NCBI RefSeq assembly: GCF_013249065.1
Contig: NZ_JABRWQ010000004.1
Location: forward strand, 1 to 64,000
Direction: 5' to 3'
Length of the DNA stretch: 64,000 bases
Origin: Winogradskyella litoriviva
GTDB lineage: Bacteria; Bacteroidota; Bacteroidia; Flavobacteriales; Flavobacteriaceae
The notes beneath the pieces were generated by a model. The model was not told the DNA's origin. It worked only from the letters and a program-made list of their open reading frames with translations, and did not search any database. The position numbers were made by a program, and so were the translations under genes. Below, one piece after another: positions 4,610-18,122 of the stretch (within the stretch, counting starts at the first letter, position 1; the number at the start of each line of letters is the position of its first letter).

Positions 4610-7149
<2,540 letters not shown>

Positions 7150-7196
7150 TAAAAAGCCATATCACTCAGATTAAATCTGTGTTGACATGGCTTTCT
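7150..7196 (-). terminator. Strong terminator of the short-ORF cassette
   Basis: Long imperfect hairpin: outer stem AAAGCCAT/ATGGCTTT, then TCA/TGA, then inner stem CAGATT/AATCTG, with small internal loops. On the minus strand it ends in a TTTTTATTTG tail. Its orientation shows that a minus-strand transcript from the 7.25-7.5 kb region ends here, well before icd. Confidence 0.8.
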
Positions 7197-7255
7197 TAGA
7201 AACAGTACTACGTGACCTGTCTAGCTTACGCTAACTCTTAGGAGGATGACCGAAA

Positions 7256-7411
7256 TCATTCCGTTTTTGGTTCAAGTGTTCCTGCTTCAAATTCGAAACA
7301 ATTCATACCTTTCAAAATGTATTGACCTGATATTACTATGTCTCTTAGGTCTGTTTTTCTTGATGTTTTTCCTTTCAAACTTCGTATAAACGAACAAATA
7401 GGTTTAAACAT
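7256..7411 (-). CDS. Putative small protein, 51 residues (downstream partner)
   Basis: An ATG frame of 51 codons starting MFKPICSFIRSLKGK and ending FEAGTLEPKTE, with a TGA stop at 7256-7258. The first 20 residues are basic and partly hydrophobic; the second half is acidic. Its ATG overlaps the stop of the preceding 30-codon frame (ATGTTTAA), the usual layout of translationally coupled genes. The stop codon sits in a small hairpin (GGA-TGA/TCA-TCC), and a strong terminator follows about 60 bases later. I do not recognise the family. Composition looks protein-like, but it could also be chance inside a structured non-coding RNA. Confidence 0.45.
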   Translation of the reverse strand: MFKPICSFIRSLKGKTSRKTDLRDIVISGQYILKGMNCFEFEAGTLEPKTE

Positions 7412-7496
7412 TGCTCTTTCTTTTTGTGTTCACTTTCGATTCCACTACTTTTTCTGAGCTTTCCACTTTATTAATATCACCTACAACGCATGTCAT
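7404..7496 (-). CDS. Putative small peptide, 30 residues (upstream partner)
   Basis: An ATG frame of 30 codons, MTCVVGDINKVESSEKVVES then a basic tail ending KSNV, with a TAA stop at 7404-7406. The sequence is hydrophilic and Lys/Glu/Val-rich with no signal peptide. Its stop overlaps the start of the 51-codon frame by eight bases. That tight overlap in an otherwise gene-free region, plus a shared terminator downstream, is the main support. No family is recognised. It could be a leader peptide controlling the second frame, half of a two-peptide unit, or chance. Confidence 0.35.
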   Translation of the reverse strand: MTCVVGDINKVESSEKVVESKVNTKRKSNV

Positions 7497-7755
7497 ATTA
7501 CTAAAGCTTCATGATTGTTTTACAAACACTTGCTAATGCAAATTGCTACACAATCTCAAAAAACGACCTCAATACATAAAGAACGAATCTTTAGTAACAA
7601 TTTAACATAAATCTAAATTTTACTTTAAAACCAAACTAAGTTTGTTGTTAATTGTTTGACTAAATTATAATTTTTTTTAATAAATCACAACCTTTTAACA
7701 CTTTAGATATCAACAGCTTATAAACTGTAGTTATTAACAATTGTTTATAACCAAA
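7497..7755. other. Intergenic stretch upstream of the short-ORF cassette
   Basis: AT-rich DNA between the small ORFs and the rplS terminator. It must hold the cassette promoter if the cassette is real. I do not find a clean TTTG-N19-TAnnTTTG on the minus strand; TAGCAATTTG at about 7534-7543 is a loose match with one extra base. No tRNA, tmRNA, RNase P or 6S signature is visible. Confidence 0.35.
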
Positions 7756-7779
7756 AAAGCCTTCTAAAAAGAAGGCTTT
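7756..7779 (-). terminator. rplS terminator
   Basis: Perfect hairpin AAAGCCTTCT / AGAAGGCTTT with a 4-base loop; the minus strand continues into a short T run. It lies 22 bases after the rplS stop and ends the ribosomal protein transcript before the small-ORF region. Confidence 0.85.
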
Positions 7780-7801
7780 AATTGTAATATATAAGTTGGA
7801 A

Positions 7802-8152
7802 TTATCTTCTAACTTCTTTGATTCTTGCTTTTTTACCAGTAAGACCTCTAAAGTAGTAAATTCTTGCTCTACGTACTTTACCACGCTTGTTAACTTCTAT
7901 CTTTTGTAAAGCTGGTAAATTTACTGGGAAGATACGTTCTACACCAATAGTTCCTGACATTTTACGGATAGTAAAGGTTTCAGAAGATCCACTTCCTTTA
8001 CGTTGCAATACAACTCCTCTAAAAAACTGAGTACGTACTTTTTCACCTTCTCTAATTTCGTAGTAAACAGTGATTGTATCACCAGCACTAAATTCTGGAA
8101 AGTCTTTACGGGTTACAAATTCGTCTTGTACAAATTTTACTAAAGAATTCAT
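7802..8152 (-). CDS. rplS: 50S ribosomal protein L19
   Basis: L19 lies at the 30S-50S interface of the ribosome. The 116-residue product matches the family in full: the N-terminal SLVKFVQDEFV, the GDTITVYYEIREGEK SH3-like core, RTQFFRGVVLQRKGSGSSET, the GVERIFPVNLP turn and the basic tail KRGKVRRARIYYFRGLTGKK. trmD, its usual partner in bacteria, lies upstream on the same strand, but a separate promoter box and a 185-base gap suggest rplS is also transcribed alone. A terminator follows. The 5' leader may carry an L19 autoregulatory element. Confidence 0.98.
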   Translation of the reverse strand: MNSLVKFVQDEFVTRKDFPEFSAGDTITVYYEIREGEKVRTQFFRGVVLQRKGSGSSETFTIRKMSGTIGVERIFPVNLPALQKIEVNKRGKVRRARIYYFRGLTGKKARIKEVRR

Positions 8153-8219
8153 TTTCTTTTATTTATTATAGTTGATTTAAAGCAACATTCACGATTTTCG
8201 CCAGAGGTTGGTCTAAAAT
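8153..8219 (-). promoter_or_regulatory. Candidate L19 leader (autoregulatory 5' UTR)
   Basis: About 67 untranslated bases lie between the predicted rplS transcription start and its ATG, longer than most leaders in this window. The segment has short potential stems (CCA/TGG around CCAACCTCTGG, and CGA-AAA-TCG). A leader motif upstream of L19 has been reported in Flavobacteria, so control by free L19 is plausible. This rests on position and weak structure; I could not run a covariance model. Confidence 0.4.
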
Positions 8220-15771: not shown

Positions 15772-17181
15772 TTATCTAAAATTATAGACTACTTTTTCAC
15801 CATCATTATTAATAACCTCTATTTGTAAAGGTTCATTTATTGCTCTTGTTTTTATAGCATTTTGTGCATCGTCAATGGTATAAAGTTTATTACCATTAAT
15901 TTTTGTGATAATAGAACCTTCTTCAATACCATTTTTATTCCAATATGGTTTATAATTTTCGTCGAAGGTTGAAATCTTAACCCCAAATTCAGTTTTATAT
16001 TTTTTAAGTTCTGCTTTTGTAGCATTTTTTATAAAACCAATTGTTGGTAGTTTAATAGTTGAAGGCTTAAGTAAAGTTACTGGTACTGTTTCTTCTTCTC
16101 CATCTCTAAGTAATGTAACGTTTACGACATCATTAGGGCTTTTAGTTTTTAAATAGCCAGATAAGTCTGAAAATTTTTGAATTTTAACATTATCAATTTT
16201 ATAAATGATATCACCAGATTGTATACCAGCTTTTTCAGCACCTGTGTCTTCTTGCACATCACTTACATAAAAGCCTTCTGTAGTGTCTGTCCCTAATTCT
16301 TTTGCAGCATCATTATTTAAAGCACCACCAACAACACCAAGAATTCCGTTTTGAACATTACCATATTCCATTATATCATTCACAATTTTACGCGCAATAT
16401 TACTTGGCACGGCAAAAGAATAACCAATATAAGAACCAGTTTGCGATGATATAGCCGTATTTATACCTATTAAATCACCACTGGTATTTACCAATGCACC
16501 TCCTGAGTTTCCAGGATTTACAGCAGCATCAGTTTGTATAAAGGACTGTGAGTGGTTGCCAGATAAATCTCTAGATTTTGCACTTATAATACCAGCAGTT
16601 ACTGTTGAGTTAAGGTTAAAAGGATTACCTACTGCTAAAACCCATTCGCCAACTTTAGCATTATCAGAATCTCCAAAGGCCATAAATGGTAGGTCTTCAT
16701 CGGTTTCAATTTTTAACAATGCTATATCTGTGGTTTCGTCCGTACCTATTAATTCTGCCATATATGCTTTATTGTTATTTAGCGTAATGCTTATTTCGTT
16801 TGCATTCTTAATAACATGGTTGTTTGTTACAATATAACCCGTTGGAGAAATAATAACACCACTTCCTGTACCAACGTGTGCACGCTGAGAGCTACGACCA
16901 TAAAATAAGTCTCTCATTGATGTTGGCGCATTTACAATAGCTGTGTTTTTTACATGGACTACAGCATCTAAAGATTTATCAGCTGCTTCAACAAAATTTG
17001 CTGCAATTAGATTGTTATTATTTACTGTATTGTGAGTAGATGTTGGCACAAATACAGGAAGGTCAGTAGACGCTTCAACAGTTAAAGGTTGCGATTCATT
17101 TTCAACAAAAAGCTTATAACCACTTAAGGTTAAAAATCCACCTAATGCCGAAACAAACACTAATAATAATACCTTCTTCAT
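15772..17181 (-). CDS. htrA: HtrA/DegP-family periplasmic serine protease
   Basis: A 469-residue protein that degrades or refolds damaged envelope proteins. An N-terminal hydrophobic segment (3-20) exports or anchors it. The trypsin-like domain has the triad His122 (TNNHVI), Asp152 (TTDIALL) and Ser226 (NPGNSGGAL). A PDZ domain covers about 275-365 (ILGVVGG...), and a second, weaker PDZ-like region ends the protein (KINGNKLYTIDDAQNAI). Length and two-PDZ layout fit DegP/DegQ-type enzymes of Bacteroidota. It has its own terminator, and dapF is divergent upstream, so both promoters share the 160-base gap. Confidence 0.93.
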   Translation of the reverse strand: MKKVLLLVFVSALGGFLTLSGYKLFVENESQPLTVEASTDLPVFVPTSTHNTVNNNNLIAANFVEAADKSLDAVVHVKNTAIVNAPTSMRDLFYGRSSQRAHVGTGSGVIISPTGYIVTNNHVIKNANEISITLNNNKAYMAELIGTDETTDIALLKIETDEDLPFMAFGDSDNAKVGEWVLAVGNPFNLNSTVTAGIISAKSRDLSGNHSQSFIQTDAAVNPGNSGGALVNTSGDLIGINTAISSQTGSYIGYSFAVPSNIARKIVNDIMEYGNVQNGILGVVGGALNNDAAKELGTDTTEGFYVSDVQEDTGAEKAGIQSGDIIYKIDNVKIQKFSDLSGYLKTKSPNDVVNVTLLRDGEEETVPVTLLKPSTIKLPTIGFIKNATKAELKKYKTEFGVKISTFDENYKPYWNKNGIEEGSIITKINGNKLYTIDDAQNAIKTRAINEPLQIEVINNDGEKVVYNFR

Positions 17182-17325
17182 AATTTTCAGTTTTAAGTTT
17201 AATTTTATTTTTCTTTTATCTAACGATTAAAATTAGAAATTTATTGATTTCAATTTTCAATTTAACGTCTTTTTAACTTCAATTTTAACGCGTGTTTAAC
17301 AACTGTTTATAACATGTATTATTCT

Positions 17326-17333
17326 TATATTTG
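17326..17333 (+). promoter_or_regulatory. dapF promoter, -7 box
   Basis: TATATTTG, an exact match to TAnnTTTG, ten bases before ATG 17343 and sixteen before ATG 17349. CTGTTT at 17303-17308 is a possible weak -33 element. The box overlaps the TTG at 17331, which therefore cannot be the start codon of dapF. Confidence 0.6.
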
Positions 17334-17348
17334 CCTCTAATTATGATT

Positions 17349-18122
17349 ATGACATTTTACAAATATCAAGGTACAGGCAATGATTTTATTATTGTAGATA
17401 ACCGACTGCAAACTATAGATAAGAAGAATACTAAAGGTATTAAGGAATTATGCGACCGTCGTTTTGGCATTGGCGCAGATGGATTTATACTTTTAGAAAA
17501 TGATGAGGATTCAGATTTTAGAATGGTGTATTACAATGCAGATGGTAATGAAAGTAGTATGTGCGGAAATGGAGGTCGTTGCATTGTTGCTTTTGCAAAA
17601 TTTTTAGGCATTATAGAAAATGAAACTCAGTTTAATGCTATTGATGGACTGCATAATGCAAAAGTTGAAGCTGATATAGTACATTTACAAATGCAAGATG
17701 TTTTAAATATTGAAACTCACAACAATCATCAATTTTTAAATACAGGATCGCCTCATCATGTAGAAATGGTTTCAGGCATTTCTAATTTTGAAGTTAATTT
17801 TTATGGTTCTAAAATTAGATATGGAGAGCCTTATAATGAAGCTGGTAGTAATGTGAATTTTGTTGAACAAATAGACACAAATCATTTTGCAGTTAGAACC
17901 TATGAAAGAGGTGTAGAGGATGAAACTTTGTCTTGCGGAACAGGTGTTACTGCAGTTGCAATTGCAATGCATAAAATAGGAAAAACAGAAAGCAAAAATA
18001 TTAACTTAAAAACACAAGGTGGTGAGCTAAAGGTTACATTTAATTATGATGCTAACGGTTACCATAATATTTGGTTAGTTGGACCAGCAGAGCAAGTTTT
18101 TAAAGGCAATATTGAATGGTAA
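17349..18122 (+). CDS. dapF: Diaminopimelate epimerase
   Basis: DapF converts LL- to meso-diaminopimelate, for lysine and for peptidoglycan crosslinks. Both catalytic cysteines are present: Cys72 in SMCGNGGRC and Cys196 in LSCGTGVTA, in the two mirror-image halves of a 257-residue protein of normal length. The frame is open upstream to a TTG at 17331 and an ATG at 17343, but the promoter box covers 17326-17333 and the family starts at M-T-F-Y-K-Y-Q-G, so I use 17349 (17343 is possible). The stop overlaps the next gene by seven bases; dapF, GNAT, mltG and the DUF2279 gene form one operon. Confidence 0.95.
   Translation: MTFYKYQGTGNDFIIVDNRLQTIDKKNTKGIKELCDRRFGIGADGFILLENDEDSDFRMVYYNADGNESSMCGNGGRCIVAFAKFLGIIENETQFNAIDGLHNAKVEADIVHLQMQDVLNIETHNNHQFLNTGSPHHVEMVSGISNFEVNFYGSKIRYGEPYNEAGSNVNFVEQIDTNHFAVRTYERGVEDETLSCGTGVTAVAIAMHKIGKTESKNINLKTQGGELKVTFNYDANGYHNIWLVGPAEQVFKGNIEW

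Follow-up and report, generated by a model that had tools for sequence, protein, structure and literature searches.

The question raised by this locus is what occupies the gap of about 970 bp between icd and rplS in Winogradskyella litoriviva. The window that we analysed is the first 64,000 nt of contig NZ_JABRWQ010000004.1 (assembly GCF_013249065.1), and features of the locus are listed in Table 1. The first-pass annotation had placed a hidden unit in this gap, on the minus strand and with its own terminator before icd, and had offered three explanations for it: a two-peptide system, a leader peptide with a regulator, or a structured RNA. The gap was confirmed and so were the two minus-strand ATG frames (ORF1 and ORF2, 30 and 51 codons), which overlap by 8 bases. 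An unannotated unit does lie inside the gap, and the strong terminator said to close it was found as a hairpin followed by a T run at 7195-7151. A simple terminator scan did not call this hairpin; its sole call was the rplS terminator at 7779-7756.

The coding potential of the two frames was examined in the 30 best loci of the genus. A pair of small overlapping peptide genes, be it a two-peptide system or a leader peptide with its regulator, would agree with the fact that both frames are open in the source genome and that the ATG of ORF2 is retained in all 30 loci, where it is a piece of a conserved RNA motif. Against it, the ATG of ORF1 is present in 1/30 loci, which is the source genome itself (one other locus has TTG), and the frame is broken by indels in 18/30. 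In ORF2, indels disrupt the frame in 28 of the 30 loci; the frame stops after 9 codons in one further locus, and fewer than 25 codons are read in 25. The gap contains many frames of comparable size on both strands, so ORF1 and ORF2 do not exceed what is expected by chance. The peptides had been matched to no known family, and this held: the Pfam search with ORF1 and ORF2 gave no match, and PHROGs gave a single weak match, to ORF1 alone (E 0.083). Moreover, covariation of RNA helices extends through both frames. Random stops or frameshifts and such covariation were the very observations that the first-pass annotation had named as incompatible with coding, and both were found. Since the reading frames are not kept across relatives, we rejected a small protein-coding gene pair and regard the peptide explanations as extremely improbable.

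The structured RNA, in turn, was borne out by covariation. The minus strand folds with a z score of -2.76 and none of 100 shuffles was as stable; the plus strand, its complement, reached -2.52, with 2/100 shuffles as stable. We aligned 56 of 58 homologues (alignment A3), 30 from the same genus (L036 and all of L001-L030 except L020) and, from other genera, 26 of 27 (L037-L063 except L057); L020 and L057 were left out because the terminator or the P0 string was not located. RNAalifold proposed 114 pairs on A3. Standard pairs were found in 94.4% of 6330 cells (shuffle mean 85.7, slid controls 39-45) and two-sided, compensatory changes in 74 of the 114 pairs (shuffle mean 41.4, slid 33-40), for a structure that is derived from the alignment it is counted on and is therefore favoured over the slid versions. 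Two-sided changes were present in 655 cells (shuffle mean 197, slid 94-121); relatedness of the sequences inflates these cell counts, and the margin over the controls is still large. None of the five measures was reached by any of 500 shuffles. The stability of the RNA fold, and above all the covariation, is beyond chance at this locus.

The individual parts of the structure differ in how they vary. In the core alignment A1 (76 positions, 58 sequences) 98.4% of the cells are paired, with two-sided changes in 7/14 pairs (shuffle mean 2.7). The 5' three-way junction has 17 pairs and 87.6% of its cells paired; two-sided changes occur in 15 of these pairs (shuffle mean 10.3, slid 10-14) and in 109 cells (shuffle mean 31.9, slid 22-40). 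When the sequences are folded singly, the closing stem of the junction forms in 53/56 (mononucleotide shuffles mean 20.8, max 29). Helix P1 has 13 pairs, 6 of them with two-sided changes, and 98.1% of its cells are paired. In the 5 pairs of P0, where 96.1% of the cells are paired, the changes are one-sided (G-U) and none is two-sided. All 13 pairs of the terminator stem are formed in 56/56 homologues; 9 never vary and 4 change on one side, so covariation is uninformative for this stem. Pairing of P0 and of the terminator therefore rests on conservation and G-U changes. From genus to genus the terminator stem (AAAGCCATGTCA...TGATATGGCTTTT) hardly changes in sequence, which is more constancy than termination needs, and it may be a binding site.

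Table 1. Features of the locus and of the source genome; positions refer to the window unless a contig (C22, C61) is given
Feature	Position	Strand	Remarks
icd	4610-6829	minus	Pfam monomeric IDH
Intrinsic-terminator hairpin and U run	7151..7195	minus	almost invariant sequence; helix 24
3' domain	7199..7288	minus	long-range closing helix and inner hairpins; helices 18-23
ORF2	7256-7411	minus	ATG frame, 51 codons; chance frame within the RNA gene
Core hairpin	7295..7344	minus	apical loop GGTCAATACATTTTGAAAG nearly invariant; helices 15-17
Multibranch domain	7347..7568	minus	closed by long-range helix P1; helices 2-14
Helix P1	7568-7556 paired with 7363-7347	minus	A3 covariation
ORF1	7404-7496	minus	ATG frame, 30 codons; chance frame within the RNA gene
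Hairpin P0	7577..7593	minus	conserved loop and 3' strand (GTTCTTTA); helix 1
5' three-way junction	7592..7657 (aligned stretch)	minus	closing stem and two hairpins; covariation, single-sequence folds
Predicted noncoding RNA gene, about 505 nt	7150..7655	minus	both ends predicted from promoter and terminator positions and the conserved fold
Putative promoter	7660..7690	minus	TTG 7690-7688, 20 nt, TAATTTAG 7667-7660 (sigmaA-like box)
DnaA-box-like repeats	7703..7750	minus	inverted repeat TTATAAACAATTGTTAATAA, then GTTTATAA and TGTTGATAT; conserved cluster
rplS	7802-8152	minus	Pfam Ribosomal_L19
L19-Flavobacteria leader (RF03130)	8183-8210		before rplS
dnaA	24057-25484
6S-Flavo (RF01685)	C22:224022-224151		above cut-off, elsewhere in source genome
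RNase P RNA (RF00010)	C22:151200-151533		above cut-off, elsewhere in source genome
tmRNA (RF00023)	C61:76351-76747		above cut-off, elsewhere in source genome

Judged by comparison of the homologous sequences, the locus is almost certainly a real structured RNA gene. It would be an independent noncoding gene of about 505 nt on the minus strand, transcribed from a sigmaA-like promoter, with its start near 7655, to the intrinsic terminator, with its end near 7150. The predicted transcript would fold, in this order, into the 5' three-way junction, P0, the multibranch domain closed by P1, the core hairpin, the 3' domain and the terminator hairpin. The span from P0 to the terminator is 434-491 nt in the 56 loci. 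The boundaries given at first, 7150-7500, were thus too short for the unit, and the promoter and the repeat cluster reach up to 7750.

The promoter was placed with the flavobacterial sigmaA box TAnnTTTG, which is described, together with its position relative to the transcription start, in PMC9723704. The 75 nt that follow the repeat cluster contain a TAnnTT[TA][GA] box in 72/73 loci (shuffle mean 30, max 40); TTG-N17-23-TAnnTT is found in 39/73 (shuffle mean 9, max 16), with shuffles that, here as for the pre-P0 box, the repeat cluster and the junction closing stem, kept single-base content only. The strict box TAnnTTTG was not enriched in these loci (7/73, shuffle mean 4, max 9). When picked by position, about 60 nt before P0, the box is TAnnTTAG in 52 of the 56 loci of A3. 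Placing it at -12 to -5 puts the start near 7655, immediately before the closing stem of the junction. Our first promoter candidate had been a TAnnTTG right before P0, found in 24/56 loci (shuffle mean 7, max 14; TAnnTTTG in 1/56). It was dropped because this stretch forms the 3' strand of the three-way junction and a better-aligned box lies about 60 nt further upstream. The box TAnnTTAG is consistently one base off the published TAnnTTTG, which may be the sign of a regulated or an alternative promoter.

No known noncoding RNA signature had been recognised in the gap, and our searches agree. A cmscan of the source window and 40 other loci against Rfam 15 at the gathering threshold gave no family over the RNA. 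The matches in the 40 other loci were L19 leaders and one Flavo-1, none overlapping the RNA; within 6850-7800, a search up to E 10 gave seven matches, all under the family thresholds. ARAGORN found no tRNA or tmRNA in the window. Like the predicted RNA, 6S-Flavo, tmRNA and RNase P RNA are housekeeping-type single-copy RNAs of the source genome, and a diverged form of any of them was rejected since the genome already has each elsewhere. Flavo-1 (RF01705) and the L19 leader (RF03130) are also flavobacterial RNA motifs but have 76 and 29 model positions. In L061 a Flavo-1 element (496-578) stands right before the L19 leader of rplS.

We know of few bacterial RNAs of such size and structural complexity. 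OLE, ROOL and GOLLD, which we take to be included in Rfam, surprised once their structures or phenotypes emerged. These RNAs are, like the RNA found here, large and non-coding, with an elaborate conserved fold and invariant stretches. The new RNA differs in being without an Rfam match and in being seen, in our searches, in Flavobacteriaceae only; identity with OLE, ROOL or GOLLD was rejected, since the scans of the window and the 40 loci gave no such match. The locus has what describes a large ornate RNA, namely large size, an elaborate fold supported by covariation and no coding content. It falls into no RNA family that could be tested, "large ornate RNA" being a loose umbrella. A closer comparison is offered by the Rfp sRNAs of Flavobacterium psychrophilum, described in PMC9723704, which are likewise independent, terminated, structured and intergenic RNAs of the same family, Rfp18 among them. 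They are typically short (the independent sRNAs of that study have a median of 176 bp, PMC9723704), against about 505 nt here. In the genus that we take to be Flavobacterium (g128) there was no match to our core model, and the RNA was absent from the rplS locus in the five members read. One Rfp RNA may nevertheless be a diverged homologue, the Rfp RNAs being set apart here by their reported features. Searches among open-access PMC articles brought up no account of the RNA found here.

Homologues were sought in relatives at several depths. With 7140-7560 as the query, blastn found the locus in 65/68 genomes of the genus, the three misses including one complete genome, and in 115/397 Flavobacteriaceae genomes. 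A model of the 76-nt core (R1), which matches 7295-7370 in the source window, gave one match per genome in 100/298 Flavobacteriaceae genomes and 65/187 genera; the search filters used miss weak matches. When R1 was run on 296 genomes sampled across the class, of which at least 12 are Flavobacteriaceae, it had 3 matches, all in Flavobacteriaceae. A second model, R2, was built from the 3' domain and the terminator. We applied it to 40 rplS loci that were core-negative or weak, and on the rplS strand 27 of them reached E <= 1e-3, which we read as diverged copies; the 40 are drawn from about 200 core-negative or weak genomes, among the rplS matches listed, lean to closer relatives and include one earlier weak R1 positive (L135). 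The terminator hairpin contributes to the R2 signal: 5 of the 27 loci also match on the opposite strand there at E <= 1e-3. At rplS loci of other families 0/20 reached this threshold. A full-length profile HMM also detects many.

The predicted RNA is thus widespread in Flavobacteriaceae, with absences. No such RNA was found in rplS-icd gaps of roughly 120-300 nt, among others in L099, L106, L111, L133 and L134, and the same holds for further loci of the family (L137, L139, L140, L143, L148). As several family members are without it, the RNA is not essential across Flavobacteriaceae. The gaps of L099, L106, L133 and L134 measure roughly 120-240 nt and their genomes are about 1.9-2.7 Mb; loss of the RNA in these four may be tied to genome reduction. 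By eye, the 3' domains of the diverged loci L104, L114, L122, L123, L124, L127 and L128 share GCAATCAATGGTTGCCG (GCAATCAAGGGTTGCCG in L127), and other homologues have different hairpins at this place.

The position of the RNA between rplS and icd might point to an element that acts in cis, as the 3' UTR of rplS or as a leader or riboswitch of icd. The distance from the end of rplS, which lies upstream on the same strand, to the aligned start of the RNA is indeed 194-240 nt in 53/56 loci and 366 in two, rplS being outside the stretch examined in the remaining one. Likewise, icd was located within the stretch in 50/56 loci, and in all of these it lies downstream on the same strand. Its distance is 94-1286 nt past the RNA, however, and about 5.6 kb in G192 and 6.7 kb in G372, so that an icd leader or riboswitch, which we checked for a fixed position before icd, was rejected. 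On the other side, the RNA is bracketed by the rplS terminator (7779-7756), the promoter-like box and its own terminator. The RNA and the repeat cluster also occur where rplS is missing from the 4 kb examined (L203, with icd present) or separated from them by an inserted gene (L204, 1025-2200, minus). For these reasons we find a cis-acting element improbable.

The repeats upstream of the promoter, about 48-95 nt before the predicted RNA start, form a conserved cluster. Their consensus is TTATTAACAATTGTTAATAACTnnnGTTTATAAnnTGTTGATAT, which we take to resemble four DnaA boxes; a DnaA box is a 9-mer of the form TTATNNACA. Several 9-mers of the TTATNNACA type stand close together at 7703-7750 and are kept in the homologues, as expected of a DnaA-box cluster. 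At no more than 8 of 43 mismatches (shuffles 16-25) the consensus was found in 53/55 RNA-positive loci scored, the two misses, L028 and L029, having a gap longer than the 260 nt scanned (a 420-nt scan takes in L029). At the same threshold it was present in 18/27 diverged loci and 3/13 loci without an R2 match, and in 0/7 RNA-less loci of the family and 0/20 loci of other families. When the tolerance was raised to 13 mismatches over 833 kb (the window and 40 loci), every match still fell at an RNA locus. In L203 and L204 the distance from the cluster to P0 is about 145-170 nt, as it is in the window, and since the cluster moves with the RNA at this spacing it belongs to the RNA gene. The exact inverted repeat occurs once in the source genome; with up to two mismatches there are 21 sites per strand against 14 for the reversed pattern, a weak enrichment. 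Loose DnaA boxes were not enriched over the window (81 found, 76 expected).

These repeats could also mean that the locus is a DNA element, either for DnaA titration or like an origin, and that the apparent RNA is incidental. The DnaA-box-like cluster is conserved together with the locus, and in 4 of the 6 genomes examined (the source window, G192, G234 and G372) about 11-16 kb separate rplS from dnaA. Compensatory changes at paired positions, on the other hand, would not be expected of a DNA site. In the other two genomes dnaA was not found around the locus, within 400 kb in G014 and 120 kb in G241; there is no skew minimum at the locus in G014 and a local skew maximum about 7 kb off in G241. 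The GC-skew minimum of the window itself is at 17367, away from the RNA locus. We therefore rejected the origin of replication as a general reading of the cluster and hold a pure DNA element to be very unlikely. Binding of the cluster by DnaA itself seems doubtful to us; DnaA, or a different protein that recognises a similar site, may control transcription of the RNA.

The structured RNA gene thus remains as the preferred reading, and its fold, promoter-like and terminator elements, single copy and independence from the neighbours are supported by comparison. From this independence we infer that the RNA probably acts in trans. We propose that it would most likely be the scaffold of an RNA-protein particle, because of its size, its many invariant loop residues and a terminator stem that is too invariant for termination alone, and that its output would be set by a factor binding the upstream inverted-repeat cluster. 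Size, fold and invariant apical loops are also what makes us lean to a ribonucleoprotein over purely antisense pairing, at about even chances. A trans-acting sRNA that pairs mainly with mRNAs, its fold presenting a pairing loop, would be the other possibility. Flavobacteria express many sRNAs, and Rfp18 of F. psychrophilum is reported to affect protease mRNAs (PMC9723704); nearly unchanged unpaired segments, among them the apical loop of the core, would suit this role. The length of about 505 nt and more than 100 supported pairs, set against the median of 176 bp given in PMC9723704, speak against such an sRNA, and we consider it possible but rather unlikely. A particle linked to replication in much of Flavobacteriaceae, in which a new class of large ornate RNA has its synthesis set by DnaA through promoter-proximal boxes, would be a more far-reaching reading of the locus, and we regard it as speculative and not probable.

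The locus illustrates how an unremarkable stretch between genes, in a common family, can conceal a large RNA overlooked by gene finders and by Rfam, even one that is recognisable in nearly all genomes of its genus and, by its core alone, in about a third of the family's genera. With one core match per genome and an intergenic site, deletion, pull-down and structure work would be direct. If the upstream repeats do bind DnaA, a noncoding RNA would be tied to chromosome replication. As to the origin of this chromosome, the gap 17181-17331, about 10 kb from the RNA, is a candidate. Here an HtrA-like gene (15772-17181, minus) is divergent from dapF (17331-18122, plus). A two-mismatch copy of the inverted repeat lies at 17293-17312, adjoining the skew minimum.
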